A DNA stretch of 60,017 bases. It comes from Alphaproteobacteria bacterium (GTDB taxonomy: Bacteria > Pseudomonadota > Alphaproteobacteria > Micavibrionales > Micavibrionaceae). Under the pieces are notes generated by a model, which was not told the DNA's origin, ran no database searches, and saw only the letters and a program-made list of their open reading frames with translations. The translations under genes and the position numbers were made by a program. Position 1 is the first letter of the stretch; every line of letters starts with the position of its first letter. This document shows positions 31,553-40,119 of the stretch, in pieces. The stretch lies in contig JANWLB010000001.1 of NCBI GenBank assembly GCA_025451095.1, positions 1-60,017 on the forward strand, read 5' to 3'.

Positions 31553-32593
31553 ATGACTTCGGATATCGTCCTCAGCGGTGACGCTGACGCAGATCTGCAA
31601 GAACATTTGGATGTTGTCGGCCGTCGCCTGAACGGGGTTTGCGACTCCGATGGAACCGAGATCGGAAAAAGACTCAGAGAAAAATTTGAAGCGACCGGGT
31701 GTAAAAAAAGCACGGCAAGCGGGCTGTCCTGCATCGCCGTCTATGAACCTTTTTCTTTTCCGCCGCTTGAAGGTGAGCCCAGTTTTACAAACACCATGCG
31801 TTGCGGCACGCCCCTGCGAAGTCTGGAGAAGCTCTTTTCCTCCGTCTGCCATGAGGGCCTTCATGCCCTGCAATGGGACGGTGCGGCAATTCTTCACGCC
31901 AGCTTTTTTAATGATGTCTCACCCTTTGTAATTTGCCCGCGCGATTGGGCTATGCTGGTTGAGCGGACCGAACAGGATGCCTGCGTCAAGGAGGCCTGGC
32001 TGTGCTGGCTGGGCCGGACACAGATGCCGGAACTGGAACAGGCGACAACCACACATCCGGTATCCGTTTCGGATTTCGAGGCGTTGCAGGCTTTGGGGCT
32101 GAACATCGAAGAAACGTTGAGAACCGCTGCCGTTTTCGCGATGGAAAAAATATACGGCATCGACGATTTTGGAAATCAGATGAGTTTCGCTGATTACTAT
32201 CACAGGCAGGCGCTGGAAAGCTATAACCGCATGATGTTGTGGCGCGCCGGAAACTGTAGCGCCCGTCAGATCGTCGTGCGCATGGAAGAGCAAGATATCA
32301 GGGGCCTGGGCAACACCATAGGTCCCAATATATTTGAAGATTTACGCTTCAGTAAACCGCCCCTCCTCTCCGCTGCCAATGAGGCGCTGGTGCAAAAACT
32401 GAACAAGGCTCTGGGCATCATTGATGAAGGCTCCCTGCCCACCTATTCCGAGGCACTGGCGCAATGGAACATGAGCAGCGAGGAATTTCTATCACTTTCA
32501 AAAACGATGAGGCAAGGCGGCGCGCACGAAAGCGGATCATCAGCGCAGACGCCGTCCCGGGTCGCTGCTGTTACGCCGCCGCCGGCGCCGTGA
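31553..32593 (+). CDS. Putative metallopeptidase-like protein with HExxH motif
   Basis: A 346-residue soluble protein. Residues 98-104 read VCHEGLH, giving HExxH (His100, Glu101, His104), followed about 35 residues later by an acidic helix MLVERTEQDACVKEAW that could supply a third zinc ligand. The layout recalls putative metallopeptidase domains such as DUF6782, but I could not check this. The C-terminal third is helical with a proline-rich end (VTPPPAP). No signal peptide. It converges on hemY and the two reading frames overlap by 23 bp at their 3' ends. Confidence 0.72.
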   Translation: MTSDIVLSGDADADLQEHLDVVGRRLNGVCDSDGTEIGKRLREKFEATGCKKSTASGLSCIAVYEPFSFPPLEGEPSFTNTMRCGTPLRSLEKLFSSVCHEGLHALQWDGAAILHASFFNDVSPFVICPRDWAMLVERTEQDACVKEAWLCWLGRTQMPELEQATTTHPVSVSDFEALQALGLNIEETLRTAAVFAMEKIYGIDDFGNQMSFADYYHRQALESYNRMMLWRAGNCSARQIVVRMEEQDIRGLGNTIGPNIFEDLRFSKPPLLSAANEALVQKLNKALGIIDEGSLPTYSEALAQWNMSSEEFLSLSKTMRQGGAHESGSSAQTPSRVAAVTPPPAP

Positions 32594-33935
32594 TCAGGAG
32601 CTCTGTCCGGTCAGCGGCCAGGGCGCCGTCACTGGCGGGCAGACGCGGATAATCCCAGACGATCGTATTGAAACTGCCGTGCGGCATGGCCACCGGCGCC
32701 CAGTGGTCATAGATACGTCCCGTCTGTGTGCAGATCCAGAGTTTGTCGGGCGGCGCGTCGGCGCCCTTGCGCAGCATCAGGCCGGTCTCCTCGAGACGGT
32801 TCTGCGCCTGCGCCAGACGCGCGCGCAGGCGGTAGAGGCGCGTACTCTGCCTTATGCTTTCACCCTGATCGAGGTACTGACGGGCCGGACCCCACAGTTT
32901 TTGATCCAGCGCCTCGCCCGCCGCGGCAATTTGGCTTTCAACGCTGTCCGGCCGCAGCGCCACGAGACGCTCGAACCAGCGCATCCGCTCCGAACCATCA
33001 TTGGCTGCCTTGCGCGGCATCGCTTCGCGCCAGAGCGCAACCATCTCGGGATGGGGGTTTTCCTTCCATGTCCTCTCCAGCACCGGAACCGCCTGCCGCG
33101 GGTGGCTCTGTTCGATGTGAAGTTGCGCCAGCCGCAGGGCGGCGGGCACGAAGGACGGATTAAGGCTGTGCGCTTTTTTGAGTTTGGCCAGTGCCGCGCC
33201 CGTATGCCCTGCCTGATAATCATCTTCCGCCTGCTGCAGCAAAAGCGCCGTGCGGTCGCTTAAGGCACGGACGGGCTCAACGGCGCCGCTGCGCTCCGCA
33301 CGGGCAAGGATCTTCTGCGCCTCGTCCCAGTGCCGCTGGCGCAGCGCGATATCATAAGACATGTGCAGCACCCAGGGTTGCCGCGGATGAAGCGCCAGCG
33401 CGCGCTGCGCCAGATTTCCGGCCAGCTGCGTATCGCCGGAATCAAGTGCTGTGAGCAGAAGGCCGCGCAGACCAAGAAATGCCGTGTCCTTGTTTTCAAG
33501 CAGCCGTCCAAAAGCCTCATGCGCGGTGGCATCATCGCCCTTAAGACGGGCGGCCTGCGCCTCAAGCAACATGGGCAGGCCCATATCCTGCGGCAGAAGG
33601 CGGCGGGCGCGAAAGGCCTGGTATCCGGCCAGCTTTACATCACCCGCGGCGACGGCGGTCAGGCCAAGCGTGAGAGCGCGGTAGCCCTTGTCGCGCTTTC
33701 TCTGCGCGCGGTAACGCCGCCAGTATTTGGGCATCGCCAGAACTTCCCAGAGAACACGGTACATAAGGACGATCGCGGCGATGGCGAAAAAGAGGGCCAG
33801 CAGCACCAGGCCGATCTGCGCCCTGATGTCATAGCCCAGCCAATGAATCTCGACCGCGCCCGGCCGGTTAGCGACCCAGACGGCGGCGGCGACCAGCAAC
33901 GCTACTTTGGCGACAAAGAAAAGCGCGCGGATCAT
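32571..33935 (-). CDS. hemY: HemY-like membrane TPR protein
   Basis: A 454-residue protein of the HemY family found beside hemC/hemD in proteobacteria. Two N-terminal membrane helices (FFVAKVALLVAAAVWVANR and LVLLALFFAIAAIVLMYRVL) precede a cytoplasmic or periplasmic series of TPR-like helices (YRALTLGLTAVAAGDVKLAG, LALHPRQPWVLHMSYDIALR, DDYQAGHTGAALAKLKKAHS). Its biochemical role is not settled; despite the name it is not the protoporphyrinogen oxidase of Bacillus. It lies 45 bp downstream of the Mic60-like gene on the same strand. Confidence 0.92.
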   Translation of the reverse strand: MIRALFFVAKVALLVAAAVWVANRPGAVEIHWLGYDIRAQIGLVLLALFFAIAAIVLMYRVLWEVLAMPKYWRRYRAQRKRDKGYRALTLGLTAVAAGDVKLAGYQAFRARRLLPQDMGLPMLLEAQAARLKGDDATAHEAFGRLLENKDTAFLGLRGLLLTALDSGDTQLAGNLAQRALALHPRQPWVLHMSYDIALRQRHWDEAQKILARAERSGAVEPVRALSDRTALLLQQAEDDYQAGHTGAALAKLKKAHSLNPSFVPAALRLAQLHIEQSHPRQAVPVLERTWKENPHPEMVALWREAMPRKAANDGSERMRWFERLVALRPDSVESQIAAAGEALDQKLWGPARQYLDQGESIRQSTRLYRLRARLAQAQNRLEETGLMLRKGADAPPDKLWICTQTGRIYDHWAPVAMPHGSFNTIVWDYPRLPASDGALAADRTELLITAPAAA

Positions 33936-33980: not shown

Positions 33981-35615
33981 TCATGGCGACGAAGAAGGTA
34001 TTGACGGCGCATGGAATTTCGCGGGCGGCGTATAGATTGAAACGCCCGAAGCGCTATCCTGTGAGAGATTTCCCTGCGGCAACAGGCGCGCGGCTTCATT
34101 CGCCAGATCGCCCAAAGTGCCCCCCTGTGTCGTATAGGAAGCGCCGCCCAGGCCGCGCATGCGCTCCGTCAGCATCTCCTGCAGTTTTTGTACCCCCACC
34201 GTCATGTCCGCCTGCTCCATCCAGGGCGCGGCGGTCTTCGCTGCTGGGCCCTGCAGTGCGGAGAGTTCAGTCATTGCCCCTTCGACATCGCCCTTGTCCA
34301 GGAACGCCTGCGCGCGCTCGACGGCGGCCTGTGTGTCCGTGGAAATCAGAGACTTGCCATCTTTCTCAACTTCCAGAACCTCGCTTAGGCGCGCCATTGC
34401 CTTTTCCTTGATCGAGACATCCTCGCCCTGCAGGGAGGACGCAACGATTTCGCCCGCCAGGCCGCGGAATTCACCGGAAAGACCCTCCGGTGTCAGAACG
34501 CCTTTCTCCGAGAGCGGCGCAAGACGGTCGAGCGCGGCAATCAGCTCGGGATCATTGTTGCCGGAAACTTTTTTAAGCAGCGCCAGATCATCGCTGAACG
34601 GCGCATTGCGGTTAAGCGATGATCTGAATTGCGCCAGCCCCAGAAGCAGGGCGGCCGCCTTCAGATCTGTTTCGGGCAGGCCCTGCAAGGCCTGTCCAAG
34701 CGTCGTTTTATCGTCCTGCTGCGCGGTTTTCAGCGCGTCCTCAACCTGGGTTTCGTCCTGCGCGGCGCCGGTGAGAGACTTAAGCTGCGCGACGATGCCG
34801 GAGAATTCCTGTTGTCCGCTTTCGCTCTGCTGCATCGCTGTTATTTTCTCAAACAAAGCGCGCAGACCCGTGGAACCGGCCAGCGCCCCGACTTGACTTT
34901 CGAGCTTCGCGATACGCTCGGTCAGCGGACCCGCCTGTGGACCGACAAGCGTTCCCGCCATATTTTCCGCCTGCTGCGCCACTTCGCCGACCTTGGTCTG
35001 CAGCGTTTCGATCGTTTCCTGAATATGGGCGGGGAGCGTCGCCGAAACCGCCCGTCCTTCCTGCTGCTGCTCACGCTCAACCGCCGTGAGAGAGGTTTCG
35101 AGCTCCGCCAGGCGGCGCCCGTTTTCGGCGACCTGCCGCTGGTGCGGCCAGAGCAATAGAACAGCCAGGCCAATAGTCGTCATGGTCAAGGCGGTGGAAA
35201 TCCATGTGCTCTTCTGCACGGCGTTTCTTTCGGCTTCTTTGATTTTTTTCATCAGCGCCTGATGATCCGCGCTTTGCCCCGCAATTGTGGAAGCCGGCGG
35301 CGGAACAGCCGTGGCGGGCCATTGCTCACGCTGCGCAGCCTGGGCGATCTCCGCCTGAAAGCTGGCCGGCGCGCTGCCGGCGTTTTCATTGGCGGGCTTT
35401 TCACCCAGAATATCCGTCAGGTCTATGTTGTTGGTTTGCGCCACCCGCAGGACATCCGCCCGCCGGTTTTCAGGAATGATGTCGCGTTTTTTCCAGCCTT
35501 GCACGGTCGTGACCGGCACATCCATCTTGCTGGCCATCGGGCGTATGCCCCCGAACTTTTCGATGATTCGTCCGGCGTCCTTGAGAGCTCCGGGCTGTTC
35601 TTTCAAATCTGTCAT
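33981..35615 (-). CDS. HTH-containing, single-TM, coiled-coil protein; Mic60 (mitofilin)-like
   Basis: A 544-residue protein. Residues about 10-60 form a small HTH (EKFGGIRPMASKMDVPVTTV, WKKRDIIPENRRADVL). A proline-rich linker leads to one membrane helix, about 137-157 (WISTALTMTTIGLAVLLLWP). A coiled coil (about 160-260) follows, then helical segments like a mitofilin C-terminus (ERAQAFLDKGDVEGAMTELS, about residues 430-450). Alphaproteobacterial Mic60 homologues occupy exactly this place between hemD and hemY. The topology and synteny support the call; sequence similarity to Mic60 could not be tested. The fused N-terminal HTH is unusual for a membrane-shaping protein. Confidence 0.75.
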   Translation of the reverse strand: MTDLKEQPGALKDAGRIIEKFGGIRPMASKMDVPVTTVQGWKKRDIIPENRRADVLRVAQTNNIDLTDILGEKPANENAGSAPASFQAEIAQAAQREQWPATAVPPPASTIAGQSADHQALMKKIKEAERNAVQKSTWISTALTMTTIGLAVLLLWPHQRQVAENGRRLAELETSLTAVEREQQQEGRAVSATLPAHIQETIETLQTKVGEVAQQAENMAGTLVGPQAGPLTERIAKLESQVGALAGSTGLRALFEKITAMQQSESGQQEFSGIVAQLKSLTGAAQDETQVEDALKTAQQDDKTTLGQALQGLPETDLKAAALLLGLAQFRSSLNRNAPFSDDLALLKKVSGNNDPELIAALDRLAPLSEKGVLTPEGLSGEFRGLAGEIVASSLQGEDVSIKEKAMARLSEVLEVEKDGKSLISTDTQAAVERAQAFLDKGDVEGAMTELSALQGPAAKTAAPWMEQADMTVGVQKLQEMLTERMRGLGGASYTTQGGTLGDLANEAARLLPQGNLSQDSASGVSIYTPPAKFHAPSIPSSSP

Positions 35616-35682
35616 AATCGCGCTCGTGCTGCCGCTGCATGGATGGTGATTAATAACTTTAACAGGCGTGCTCGTTAAAGCT

Positions 35683-36369
35683 CTAAAGCCGCGCCAGCAT
35701 TCCAGCCATATCGGGCGTACCTGCGGTTTGTACGTCTTTCCAGGACAGATGCCGCAGTGACTCTACCACCGGCGCGCTCAGACACAAGGCTTTTATTGAA
35801 GAAAGGGCGGGCGTACGCGCGTACTGTTCAACCAGCCCGCAAAAAATTTCTGCCGTACGGGCGGAGAAGAACGTTGCGGTTTGCAGGCCCCCGCGCTCCA
35901 GCACATCCAGAAAATCCGGGCTTAGGATTTGGACCGGGCGCGCCTCATACAGGACCACGCGGTCGGCCACCCCGCCGCCAGCCTGTTCGACAGCGCCTGT
36001 GACATGCGCCCCTGATATATGCAAAACACTGCCGGGTCTGTTGGCAGCCTCCTTGCGCAAAAGCCGGTTCAGATTATCGAGTGTGCCGCCCCCTTCGCGG
36101 ACATCCTGAAACCCGAAAGACCGTGCCGCATCAGCCGTCGCCCCGCCCACAGCATAGACCGGCAAGTGGCGGGTGGATTCTCTTGTAGCAAAAGCACTTA
36201 CGGCATGGCGACTGGTGAAGGCCAGCGCGTCATAGGACGTCAGAACCGGCAGGCTGTTCGGGATCGAAACAATCTCAAACATGGGTTCGCAGAAGGCCTC
36301 CCGGCCTTTTTTTTCCAGAGCTTTGGCAAAGCTTTCCGCATCGGCGCGAGGGCGGGTCACAAGAATCAT
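35683..36369 (-). CDS. hemD: Uroporphyrinogen-III synthase
   Basis: A 228-residue HemD; the family is poorly conserved. It starts ILVTRPRADAESFAKALEKKGREAF, then has YDALAFTSRHAVSAFA, PVYAVGGATADAARSFGF and the second-domain motif TATFFSARTAEIFCGLVEQY, typical of the two-domain fold. It closes hydroxymethylbilane into uroporphyrinogen III. It starts 17 bp after the hemC stop, so hemC-hemD form an operon feeding siroheme, heme or cobalamin synthesis. Confidence 0.93.
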   Translation of the reverse strand: MILVTRPRADAESFAKALEKKGREAFCEPMFEIVSIPNSLPVLTSYDALAFTSRHAVSAFATRESTRHLPVYAVGGATADAARSFGFQDVREGGGTLDNLNRLLRKEAANRPGSVLHISGAHVTGAVEQAGGGVADRVVLYEARPVQILSPDFLDVLERGGLQTATFFSARTAEIFCGLVEQYARTPALSSIKALCLSAPVVESLRHLSWKDVQTAGTPDMAGMLARL

Positions 36370-36385: not shown

Positions 36386-37318
36386 TTATTTCAGAAAATC
36401 CGGCGGCAGGCGGGCTTTAAGTTTAGACCCGCACGCCACGCCCAGCGCATCTGCGTCCTTGTCGCTGTCAACCGGACCTTCGATGCGTTCCTCGAATATC
36501 CGGCTGCCGTCCAATGCTGCAACCGCGACCCGCAGCATAAGTCCACCCCCGCTCCTTATGGCATAGGCGCCGATCGGCGTATGACAGGAGCCGTCCAGAG
36601 TGGCCAGAGCCGCCCGCTCCGCCACCGCGCAAAGGCCGGTTTCGCGGCAATGAACGAGATCAAACAGCGCCCGGCGTTCCTTATCACCAGCCCGGATTTC
36701 AATCCCGACAACCCCTTGTCCGCCTGAAGGCAGCATCTCCTCCGGTTCCAGAACGGCAGCAATTTCATGGGTGAGGCCCAGCCGGATCAGGCCGGCCATG
36801 GCAAGAAAAATCGCATCCGCCTGGCCGCGGCGCAGTTTTTCGATGCGCGTAGGCACGTTACCTCGCAAAGGTACGATCTGTACGTCCGGGCGGCGTGCCA
36901 GCAAAAACGCCTGCCGCCGCGTGCTGGACGTACCGACCCGGGCGCCGGGCGGAAGATCGTCCAGCCTTTTGAATCCATTTGATAAGAACGCCTCGCGGGC
37001 ATCAGCGCGGGGAAGAACATGTTCAATCACCAGCCCGTCCGGTAGACGTGCCGGCATATCTTTGAGGGAATGCACCCCGCAATCGATCCGGCCCTCCAGC
37101 AGCGCCTGCTCGATCTCGCGCGCGAAGAGGCCCTTGCCGCCTTCGGATTCCGCCAGCCGTGTTTCGCCCTGCGACGGATGCCAGTCGCCCGAGGTTTTGA
37201 TCTCCACCACCTCGATATCGAGCGCGGGCACCTTCTGCCGCAGCGCCCGGGCGACCATGTCAGTCTGGACCAGTGCAAGCCGGGAGCCGCGTGTGCCTAT
37301 CCGTAGACGGGAAGCCAT
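36386..37318 (-). CDS. hemC: Porphobilinogen deaminase (hydroxymethylbilane synthase)
   Basis: A 310-residue HemC of normal length. Motifs are LRIGTRGSRLALVQTDMVA, GRIDCGVHSLKDMPARLPDG, RVGTSSTRRQAFLLARRPD, LRGNVPTRIEKLRRGQADAI and ATLDGSCHTPIGAYA, whose Cys carries the dipyrromethane cofactor. It joins four porphobilinogen molecules. It is first of hemC-hemD-mic60-like-hemY. In many alphaproteobacteria hemC is divergent from tsaD; here a further minus-strand gene lies between them. Confidence 0.96.
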   Translation of the reverse strand: MASRLRIGTRGSRLALVQTDMVARALRQKVPALDIEVVEIKTSGDWHPSQGETRLAESEGGKGLFAREIEQALLEGRIDCGVHSLKDMPARLPDGLVIEHVLPRADAREAFLSNGFKRLDDLPPGARVGTSSTRRQAFLLARRPDVQIVPLRGNVPTRIEKLRRGQADAIFLAMAGLIRLGLTHEIAAVLEPEEMLPSGGQGVVGIEIRAGDKERRALFDLVHCRETGLCAVAERAALATLDGSCHTPIGAYAIRSGGGLMLRVAVAALDGSRIFEERIEGPVDSDKDADALGVACGSKLKARLPPDFLK

Positions 37319-37388: not shown

Positions 37389-38927
37389 TCAGGGCGCGGC
37401 AACCGGGACTTTCCAGCGGCTGCCCAGAAAGCCCCGGATATCGGCCTCATCCGGCGGAGGAAAAAGGACGGGGAATGGCCGGGCGACGTTCGCAATACGG
37501 GTGGCCAGGGGGCCGGTGATCGTCTGAAGCGCATACAAGGGCTCAGCGGGCGGCACATAGTTTTTATTCGTCTGCGCCTCCTGCAGAGCCGCTTCATAGC
37601 GCGCGCGCAACTGGAAGGCCGTGCGCAGCGTCCCCGGCGTATTGATCGCCGACAGCCCGGCGATTTGCGCAAAATCGGCATCTCTGCCGCCGCCGCATAT
37701 CTCGCTGGCCAGCTGCCTTATTTCATCCAGCCGGCGCAGGCTGCCCGCGTCCGATTCAGGCCGGCGCGTTTTCGAGACATCGATAACCGCCGGCATCGCC
37801 TTTGTCATGGCCAGGTTGGTCTCATAAACGCGGATAGCGGCGCGGCGCGCCAGACGCGACTGGATAGGATCATTGCCCTCCACCTCGCTGAACAGGCGGG
37901 GCAGCATGGCTTCGGCATAGCCGAGACTGGCTACCGTCAGAAGACTGGTGGTGTATTCATGCGGGGGAGAGCCATCGCGGCCCTGATGTTCAACCAGATG
38001 CATGACGGACTGATTCTTCTGGCCCACTTTCGTATAAATCCCCGTAAAGCCGCCGGCCCGGCCGAACCCCTCGGGATCGTCATAGCGCGACATATAGCGA
38101 TCGATGAACGACTGATGCCGGGCCGCGACAATGCTTAAGTGATAGCGGGCCTCCTGCGGGCGGATATAATTATCGATGATGTGTTTCGTGATCGTATCGG
38201 CAGCGGACGCAACGTCAATCCGGCCTGCTGATATCTCCCCCGTCATGCGGTCGAAATAGTCTTTGGCCGGAACGCGGATTTCATTGAATACGCGGCCATA
38301 GAATTCCTTCCGGTTGGCGCGGTCCTTAAAGCGTTCCTGAGCGTATAGCGCAAGGGCTACACCAAAGTGCGCAATCCGGCGCTCAAGGACCGGCCAGCTT
38401 TTGCGCATATCCTGCATGACAGCCTGGCTCAACGAGGCAGGCTCAAAAAGTTTTTCACCGTCATCGTGGGAAAGATATTCAAGAAAAACAGAATCCAGAA
38501 TGGATGGAACATTCTCGACAATGTAATCGATTTCCTCATCCGTATATTCGGCCCAGATGCGGCGCCCGCTTAAATGAGGCGAAAATAGAAACTCACGAAA
38601 TTCATCAACAATGTCATAGCAGGCAACGAGCGTGCCCTGCAGAACATGTTGTGCCGTGTTGCCTTTGCGGTTTTCCGACGTATTGGGATTGCCGCCAAAG
38701 CGGCTGATCTGCTGCAACTCTCCCAGGCTGAGATCGAGCACATTTTCCAGCACGGGATCGAACTCATAGCCGAAGGCTTCGGCCACCGGGCGCAGCGACT
38801 CGCGGACATCGCCGCCCTTGGTGACGTTTTCCCAGATTTCCTGATAAAGCGCCGCCGCGTCTTCCCGTGTCAGAAGACGGATAGGTTTTCTTTTCGTGCC
38901 CTCTCCGGGCAGGCAAAGGTGCGCCAT
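37389..38927 (-). CDS. Unrecognised 512-residue protein between hemC and tsaD
   Basis: I do not recognise this protein. It is largely helical and soluble, with no signal peptide, membrane helix or nucleotide-binding loop. Segments that may help identification are RLLTREDAAALYQEIWENV, DEEIDYIVENVPSILDSVF, KNQSVMHLVEHQGRDGSPPH and SLLTVASLGYAEAMLPRLFS. The start at 38927 has AAGGG 7 nt upstream; an extension to 39155 would run over tsaD. It lies 70 bp upstream of hemC on the same strand and might be co-transcribed with it. Codon use resembles its neighbours, so recent foreign origin is not indicated. Confidence 0.78.
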   Translation of the reverse strand: MAHLCLPGEGTKRKPIRLLTREDAAALYQEIWENVTKGGDVRESLRPVAEAFGYEFDPVLENVLDLSLGELQQISRFGGNPNTSENRKGNTAQHVLQGTLVACYDIVDEFREFLFSPHLSGRRIWAEYTDEEIDYIVENVPSILDSVFLEYLSHDDGEKLFEPASLSQAVMQDMRKSWPVLERRIAHFGVALALYAQERFKDRANRKEFYGRVFNEIRVPAKDYFDRMTGEISAGRIDVASAADTITKHIIDNYIRPQEARYHLSIVAARHQSFIDRYMSRYDDPEGFGRAGGFTGIYTKVGQKNQSVMHLVEHQGRDGSPPHEYTTSLLTVASLGYAEAMLPRLFSEVEGNDPIQSRLARRAAIRVYETNLAMTKAMPAVIDVSKTRRPESDAGSLRRLDEIRQLASEICGGGRDADFAQIAGLSAINTPGTLRTAFQLRARYEAALQEAQTNKNYVPPAEPLYALQTITGPLATRIANVARPFPVLFPPPDEADIRGFLGSRWKVPVAAP

Positions 38928-39045
38928 GGGTACCCTTTTTAAATTAATATGAAAACATAAAGGTTTTATTTTTCGTAAGCAAGAAAATAGTGGCCGGGGG
39001 CCGCTAACCGGTTGCTGCGGCGGCAGAAAATCCTTAATAAGGGGC

Positions 39046-40119
39046 ATGATCGTTTTGGGGATAGAAACCAGCTGCGATGAAACCGGCGTTGCCCTGGTCG
39101 ATGACGGAGGCCGCATATTGTCCAATATGGTCCTGAGCCAGACCGACCGCCACAAGATATTCGGGGGCGTGGTGCCGGAAATCGCCGCCCGCGCGCATCT
39201 GGATCATCTGGACACGATGATCCGGGCCGCCCTAAAAGAAGCCGGGATTGCCATGGAAAGTCTCACCGCCGTCGCCGCCACCTGCGGCCCCGGCCTGATC
39301 GGCGGGGTCATGGTCGGGATGATGGCGGGCAAGGCCATTGCCGCCGCCCGCGGCCTTCCGTTTATCGCCGTCAATCATCTGGAGGCGCATGCCCTTACCC
39401 CCCGCCTGGTCAACCCTGATCTGGACTTCCCCTACCTTGTTCTCCTGGTGTCCGGCGGACACACGCAGATTTTGGTGGCCGAAAATGTCGGCAGTTATCG
39501 TCTGTGGGGCACGACGATGGATGATGCCCTGGGTGAATGTTTCGACAAGGCGGCAAAGCTGATGGGCCTGCCTTTTCCGGGTGGGCCGCATCTTGAGCGC
39601 GCAGCCGCGCAATGCCGCGATAAAGAGGGCGCTCTGGCACGCTTTCCCCTGCCGCGACCGCTCAAAGGTCAACCCGGCTGCGATTTTTCCTTTTCAGGCA
39701 TGAAAACCGCCGTGCGCACTTTCATCGACCGCCTGCCGCCGGGTGGACTGGCGCCTGACGATCTGGCCGCTCTGGCTTTTTCTTTCCAGACAGCGATCAC
39801 GGAAACCGTGGCCGACCGCTGCGGCCGCGCCCTGACCCTTTTCCGCGCGAAATATGATGTGCCGAAACCCGCGCTGATCGCCTGCGGCGGCGTCGCCGCC
39901 AACGCAATGTTGCGCGCGGGCCTTGAGACTCTGGCAGACCGCCACGGCATGAGATTTATTGCGCCGCCCGTGTCTTTGTGCTCCGATAACGGCGCGATGA
40001 TCGCCTGGACCGGTGTTGAAAGAATGAAAAAAGGCATGACCGATTCCTTAAGCGTTGCCGCGCGGCCGCGCTGGCCGCTCGATCCGCAGGCCCCGGACAG
40101 AAAGGCGGCGGGGACATGA
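39046..40119 (+). CDS. tsaD: tRNA N6-threonylcarbamoyladenosine transferase TsaD
   Basis: A 357-residue TsaD (Kae1/YgjD family), part of the complex making t6A37 in ANN-decoding tRNAs. Motifs: VLGIETSCDETGVALVDD, VVPEIAARAHLDHLD, CGPGLIGGVMVGMMAGKAIA, NHLEAHALTPRL (metal-binding HxxxH), LLVSGGHTQIL and LIACGGVAANAMLRAGLE. TAAGGGGC lies before the ATG. Its end overlaps the gpsA start by 4 bp. It is a conserved single-copy gene usable for phylogenetic placement. Confidence 0.97.
   Translation: MIVLGIETSCDETGVALVDDGGRILSNMVLSQTDRHKIFGGVVPEIAARAHLDHLDTMIRAALKEAGIAMESLTAVAATCGPGLIGGVMVGMMAGKAIAAARGLPFIAVNHLEAHALTPRLVNPDLDFPYLVLLVSGGHTQILVAENVGSYRLWGTTMDDALGECFDKAAKLMGLPFPGGPHLERAAAQCRDKEGALARFPLPRPLKGQPGCDFSFSGMKTAVRTFIDRLPPGGLAPDDLAALAFSFQTAITETVADRCGRALTLFRAKYDVPKPALIACGGVAANAMLRAGLETLADRHGMRFIAPPVSLCSDNGAMIAWTGVERMKKGMTDSLSVAARPRWPLDPQAPDRKAAGT

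Follow-up and report, generated by a model that had tools for sequence, protein, structure and literature searches.

Introduction

Mic60, the core crista-organising protein, came to mitochondria from their bacterial ancestor. In Alphaproteobacteria, Mic60 (mitofilin, PF09731) has a transmembrane (TM) segment and a coiled coil, with the mitofilin domain at the C-terminus, and its gene is located between hemD and hemY. For this class, one report gives an operon of the order HemC-HemD-IMMP-HemY (PMC7641849). The protein described here, HTH-Mic60, shares the domains and the gene position of alphaproteobacterial Mic60 and differs by a Cro-like helix-turn-helix (HTH) domain of ~50 residues ahead of the TM segment. 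The locus also resembles the gammaproteobacterial HemD-HemX fusion (NCBIfam PRK06975) in having hemD beside or fused to a mitofilin-like membrane protein; unlike HTH-Mic60, no part of that model names an HTH.

Two groups of membrane proteins offer a comparison for the layout. ToxR and CadC are described as transmembrane transcription regulators with a cytoplasmic DNA-binding domain, one TM segment and a periplasmic domain (PMC10269533). The predicted layout of HTH-Mic60 is similar and is used here as a working analogy, with no claim of a common family: its HTH is Cro-like whereas theirs is a winged helix, and its predicted periplasmic part is a membrane-shaping mitofilin domain in place of their dedicated sensor. 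RodZ has an XRE-like HTH that is reported to bind MreB rather than DNA (PMC6946637). HTH-Mic60 shares with RodZ, in its predicted layout, a cytoplasmic XRE/Cro-like HTH, one TM segment, a periplasmic part and a link to cell structure, and departs from it in that the covariation of cis-elements with its HTH points to DNA. The HTH itself has its best sequence and fold matches, with modest scores, in the phage Cro proteins of Xfaso 1, N15 and P22, from which it differs in being fused to a membrane protein.

Functional proteins that regulate their own genes include trigger enzymes with DNA-binding parts, for example PutA and BirA. The fusions of this same HTH to CarA, Ccr, NnrDE, HisZ, CoaBC and PyrB appear to be of a similar kind, whereas Mic60 is a membrane organiser and not an enzyme. 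The HTH domain already has an NCBIfam model, and Mic60 is a known protein. Their combination, its spread and the associated cis sites appear to be new: no description of carph-isopro or of an HTH in Mic60 was found in a full-text literature search, most subscription papers lying outside its scope, and the accessible parts of the Mic60 literature mention no HTH on the protein.

Results

The hth-mic60 gene and its product

The window is the whole stretch of DNA that was analysed (60,017 nucleotides), and in it the heme genes follow the order hemC-hemD-mic60-hemY. The genes and the parts of the protein are as follows.

36386-37318, minus strand: hemC, which opens the heme group (TIGR00212; profile match)
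35683-36369, minus strand: hemD (PF02602; profile match), with the candidate promoter and sites in its 3' end
33981-35615, minus strand: hth-mic60, encoding a 544-residue HTH-TM-coiled coil-mitofilin protein (open reading frame, profile matches and AlphaFold)
32571-33935, minus strand: hemY (HemY_N/TPR; profile match), the next gene after mic60
35433-35582, minus strand: Cro-like HTH (carph-isopro, NF046037), residues ~12-61 (profile match and fold)
35484-35513, minus strand: recognition helix VTTVQGWKKR, residues 35-44 (helix in the model and conservation)
35148-35207, minus strand: TM segment, residues ~137-156 (hydropathy and AlphaFold helix)
34881-35135, minus strand: predicted periplasmic coiled-coil region, residues ~161-245 (long AlphaFold helices and coiled-coil matches)
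34143-34871, minus strand: helical C-terminal part including the mitofilin domain, residues ~249-491 (Pfam, profile and AlphaFold)

An open reading frame at 37389-39155 (minus strand), between hemC and tsaD, sets the heme genes apart from the divergent tsaD promoter region.

A first-pass annotation had described a Mic60-like protein encoded between hemD and hemY, in which a single TM helix, a coiled coil and a helical C-terminal region follow an N-terminal HTH of about 50 residues. This description is upheld throughout, and neither of the outcomes that it named as refuting was seen: mitofilin similarity is detectable, and the HTH segment is predicted to fold. The neighbours are matched as hemC, hemD and hemY, and the frame begins with an ATG and encodes 544 residues. 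With hmmscan, the NCBIfam model NF046037 ('carph-isopro') matches residues 16-67 (E 3.5e-16, 59.1 bits), above its curated cut-off of 38 bits, and Pfam mitofilin (PF09731) matches residues 107-482 (E 2.2e-10, 40.6 bits), above its cut-off of 27.4 bits; a genome scan places the latter at 34170-34808. A profile of 28 relatives has as its best PDB match the solved MIC60 mitofilin chain 7pv1 (E 2e-6, positions 422-494). Hydropathy reveals a single hydrophobic segment, residues 137-156, which is present in relatives too.

AlphaFold modeling, using an alignment of 65 relatives, places HTH residues 11-66 at a pLDDT of ~97 in the full-length protein; modelled alone, the HTH reaches 84. The domain is followed by a disordered linker (residues 73-114), a long helix (118-186) that runs through the membrane, further long helices and a helical C-terminus with a pLDDT of mostly 80-96. 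Profile, hydropathy and model together put a DNA-binding-type domain and a TM helix within one chain. The helical fold of the HTH model resembles that of Cro and includes an HTH recognition helix; sequence and fold scores are modest. Here, the top matches of the HTH profile are Xfaso 1 Cro and P22 Cro, below threshold (E 0.03-0.08), and the best structural alignments of the model are to N15, Xfaso 1 and P22 Cro, with Z about 6; N15 Cro on operator DNA (6on0) aligns over 60 residues at 2.8 A with Z 6.3. A fold search with the full-length model, in which long helices dominate, gave nothing significant, and mitofilin was absent among the matches listed. A chance HTH match is ruled out by the E value of 3.5e-16 and by conservation across the order.

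Spread of the architecture

The genome of the window groups with 'Micavibrio sp.' MAGs. A matching protein was found in 36 of the 38 order relatives searched, and in nearly all order-relative loci that were read the mitofilin frame carries the HTH N-terminally. The recognition helix, residues 35-44, is near-invariant among relatives. In one alignment of order relatives (A1), 13 of the 19 invariant columns fall within the HTH. The conservation of the HTH in a second alignment (A2) is biased because the patterns used to collect it lie inside the HTH, which was not the case for A1.

HTH-mitofilin is a widespread alphaproteobacterial architecture. Among 289 Alphaproteobacteria, sampled across the class and balanced by family, genome scans detected mitofilin in 145 and carph-isopro in 89. 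The two domains occur in one open frame in 33 of the 145 mitofilin-bearing genomes, representing 16 GTDB families (our own count from the two scan lists), which rules out an oddity specific to the order. Nor was the HTH overlooked in mitofilin proteins that lack a carph-isopro match, as a more sensitive profile detected it in 0 of the 40 that were fetched. HTH-bearing and HTH-less rows are intermixed in the mitofilin tree; the best tree has 17 changes, of which the starred branches force only one. In this genome, HTH-Mic60 is the only carph-isopro protein that a genome search found.

Gene fusion at this position may extend further in some loci. At L177:1652-4153 (plus strand), HemD, the HTH, a TM segment and mitofilin lie in one frame of 834 residues, possibly a single HemD-HTH-Mic60 protein, and HemD, HTH and mitofilin also share one open frame at L005, L009, L017, L019 and L024.

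A candidate promoter and GTAC sites inside hemD

When 81 Micavibrio-type loci were lined up, the 3' end of hemD was seen to contain TTGTGT-N16-TAGAGT, some 150-200 bp ahead of the codons for the HTH. At least 10 of the 12 promoter bases are matched in 67 of the 81 loci; among 1620 shuffles, 39 reach this level. Beneath the -10 element the codon differs between loci, specifying E, K, N, Q, G or R (VLES, VLKS, VLNC, VVQS, VLGC, VLRS) with TANANT retained, and the constraint is therefore at the level of DNA. Around this candidate promoter there are GTAC palindromes, mostly as CGTACG or ACGTAC, at fixed offsets from the -10 element: -93, -59/-51, -33, +8 and +32/+34. In the window these elements are placed as follows, the sites by motif position and without strand.

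35782-35787, minus strand: -35 element TTGTGT of the candidate promoter (conservation)
35760-35765, minus strand: -10 element TAGAGT of the candidate promoter, 145 bp before the mic60 start (conservation)
35855-35858: GTAC in CGTACG, -93 from the -10 element
35821-35824: GTAC site, -59 from the -10 element
35813-35816: GTAC in CGTACG, -51 from the -10 element
35730-35733: GTAC site (ACGTAC), +32 from the -10 element
35717-35720: GTAC site, +45 from the -10 element

The clustering was assessed by shuffling synonymous codons within each hemD. Between -130 and -20 there are 69 GTAC sites against 32.8 expected (largest of 200 shuffles, 44), and between -19 and 60 there are 65 against 21.7 (largest of 200, 30), whereas the rest of hemD has no excess (85 against 92.3 expected). 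The -93 site is partly due to the conserved HemD residues R-T (25 against 10.6 expected). In 23 of 74 Micavibrio-type loci there are few sites or none. Within the order the recognition helix is invariant, and when site number was compared with HTH residues only K43Q/D, at the end of this helix, stood out. The substitution occurs at L083, L101, L103, L112, L117 and L130, and all six of these Micavibrio-type loci lack GTAC near the hemD promoter, an observation made post hoc and partly from one clade.

A pattern search of the 1.97 Mb genome found seven GTAC triples, one of which is the stretch 35813-35858. Another, at L234:1501-1520, lies near the start of a monothiol glutaredoxin-like gene (iron metabolism) and is possibly a second target or chance. 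Between hemD and mic60, at 35657-35680, there is a perfect inverted repeat, CTTTAAC-N10-GTTAAAG; as an operator it was rejected, being absent at that place among the relatives listed.

Covariation of the sites with the HTH

The motif was defined in Micavibrio-type genomes and afterwards counted in other families, in the 420 bp preceding the HTH at 25 HTH-bearing loci and at 58 HTH-less loci. Upstream of HTH-bearing mic60 there are 77 GTAC sites against 19.8 expected, which ranks GTAC first among the 256 tetramers, whereas no excess is seen upstream of HTH-less mic60 (24 against 22.7) and the mitofilin coding sequence, used as a control, has 7 against 5.1. For CGTACG the count is 34 against 3.5 expected at HTH-bearing loci, compared with 2 across all HTH-less loci. 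Both types have hemD upstream; with the comparison restricted to loci with hemD coding upstream, at least two GTAC sites are present at 18 of 24 HTH-bearing and 4 of 51 HTH-less loci (p 7e-9). Base composition, codon use and the upstream hemD are ruled out as sources of the excess by the shuffles, the HTH-less loci and this restricted comparison.

Nine further HTH-bearing loci have 26 sites against 7.5 expected, a count that leaves out a tenth, L236, whose HTH the regular expression did not pick up. Counted by family, sites accompany the HTH in 13 of 17 HTH-bearing families, one being that of L236 with its sites counted by eye, compared with 4 of 58 HTH-less loci. The HTH-bearing families with few or no sites are f60, f71, f104, f45 and most of f96. 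The significance of these comparisons may be inflated by shared ancestry, as the resolution of the mitofilin tree is too low to allow independent contrasts, which gave one supported pair only and no conclusion.

The same HTH on other proteins

The carph-isopro HTH is also found at the N-terminus of crotonyl-CoA carboxylase/reductase (Ccr), phosphoglycerate dehydrogenase (SerA), NAD(P)H-hydrate epimerase/dehydratase (NnrDE), carbamoyl-phosphate synthase small subunit (CarA) and aspartate carbamoyltransferase (PyrB), all above the cut-off, and on CoaBC and HisZ below it. The NCBI name may derive, at a guess, from carbamoyl-phosphate and isopropylmalate enzymes. The loci are:

HTH-CarA: L179, L183, L187, L255
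HTH-Ccr: L184, L185, L188
HTH-NnrDE: L186, L189
HTH-PyrB: L191
HTH-SerA: L180
HTH-HisZ: L172, L173, L261-L263
HTH-CoaBC: L174, L190

Most of these fusion types have a palindrome of their own upstream. HTH-CarA is preceded by GGGAW-N5-WTCCC in 4 of 4 loci (-77 to -84), HTH-Ccr by CGTCAA-N13-TTGACG in 3 of 3 (-87/-88) and HTH-HisZ by a TTCATATWATATGAA-like palindrome in 5 of 8, for all of which the shuffled expectation is 0.02 or less. The one HTH-PyrB locus has AAATTGCG-N5-CGCAATTT, and upstream of the one SerA locus (L180) no clear palindrome was seen. These palindromes are taken as supporting evidence because their patterns were written after inspection of the sequences. HTH-NnrDE, whose helix is TT[VI]QGW as in Mic60, has ACGTAC upstream at 2 of 2 loci (0.19 expected), and at L181, whose product is a short HTH-TM protein containing VSTVQGW, there are 8 GTAC sites against 1.7 expected. 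A match of helix type to site type is what a DNA-binding autoregulator would predict, and it lends the proposal below supporting evidence. One Cro-like HTH placed before many unrelated biosynthetic enzymes of Alphaproteobacteria is possibly a general device for autoregulation.

Discussion

GTAC sites are enriched upstream of mic60 only where the HTH is present and, therefore, HTH-Mic60 probably acts from the membrane to control its own gene as well. Judged from sequence, it is likely that HTH-Mic60 is a membrane-anchored, DNA-binding autoregulator of mic60-hemY that acts via clustered CGTACG/GTAC sites. Here, the cytoplasmic Cro-like HTH would bind directly to the clustered sites around the promoter in the hemD 3' end and, from the membrane, tune mic60-hemY transcription. 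In the topology that we infer for the cell, the coiled coil and the mitofilin domain lie in the periplasm, where they would determine the oligomeric state or location of the protein and, with it, the avidity of the HTHs for the sites, whose clustering would suit avidity binding by an oligomeric protein. Gene output would then follow the amount or assembly state of Mic60, the presumed signal. As to whether the gene is activated or repressed, repression would be the simpler assumption.

The first-pass annotation had offered two readings of the HTH, a coupling to DNA or gene control and a protein-binding module. The cis-element evidence appears to favour the former and to disfavour the latter, according to which the HTH would link Mic60 to a cytoplasmic partner in the manner of RodZ. 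RodZ is indeed the main counter-example, with the same layout and an HTH that reportedly does not bind DNA (PMC6946637), and strong conservation of the HTH, taken alone, would fit a protein interface as well; a protein-binding role, however, predicts neither GTAC sites that track the HTH across families nor palindromes upstream of other fusions of this HTH, and we consider it unlikely. It is likewise unlikely that the HTH instead serves as a tether between chromosome and envelope wherever Mic60 is located, with no role in transcription, the sites upstream of mic60 being one anchoring cluster. Multivalent anchoring would suit short sites that occur in clusters and a membrane protein that is oligomeric, and the genome has a few other GTAC clusters, but the sites keep constant distances from a promoter that immediately precedes the gene of HTH-Mic60 itself, as autoregulation predicts, and soluble enzymes with the carph-isopro HTH also have upstream palindromes.

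The promoter and sites in hemD could also belong to an unrelated regulator, with the HTH a conserved relic or binding elsewhere. The several HTH-bearing families without GTAC sites would agree with this, yet it leaves unexplained why sites track the HTH and why ACGTAC is found at NnrDE, whose HTH shares the recognition helix; in addition, the search of this genome found no second carph-isopro protein. Such a regulator is likewise unlikely, and autoregulation by HTH-Mic60 is the reading retained.

A bolder form of the proposal, to which we give an even chance, is that bacterial Mic60 is a membrane-bound transcription factor across much of Alphaproteobacteria, one that would read its own assembly at membrane junctions, set mic60-hemY expression via clustered CGTACG sites and belong to an undescribed set of autoregulators that arise when one Cro-like HTH is put ahead of unrelated metabolic and structural proteins. 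The CGTACG sites around the promoter inside hemD make for a concrete, testable promoter and site, and the fusions of one HTH to CarA, Ccr, NnrDE, HisZ, CoaBC, PyrB and others point to a more general autoregulation device. If many bacterial Mic60s also act as gene regulators anchored in the membrane, a single protein would combine membrane shaping with heme supply and gene control in this class, and mitochondrial Mic60 may have lost a regulatory head.
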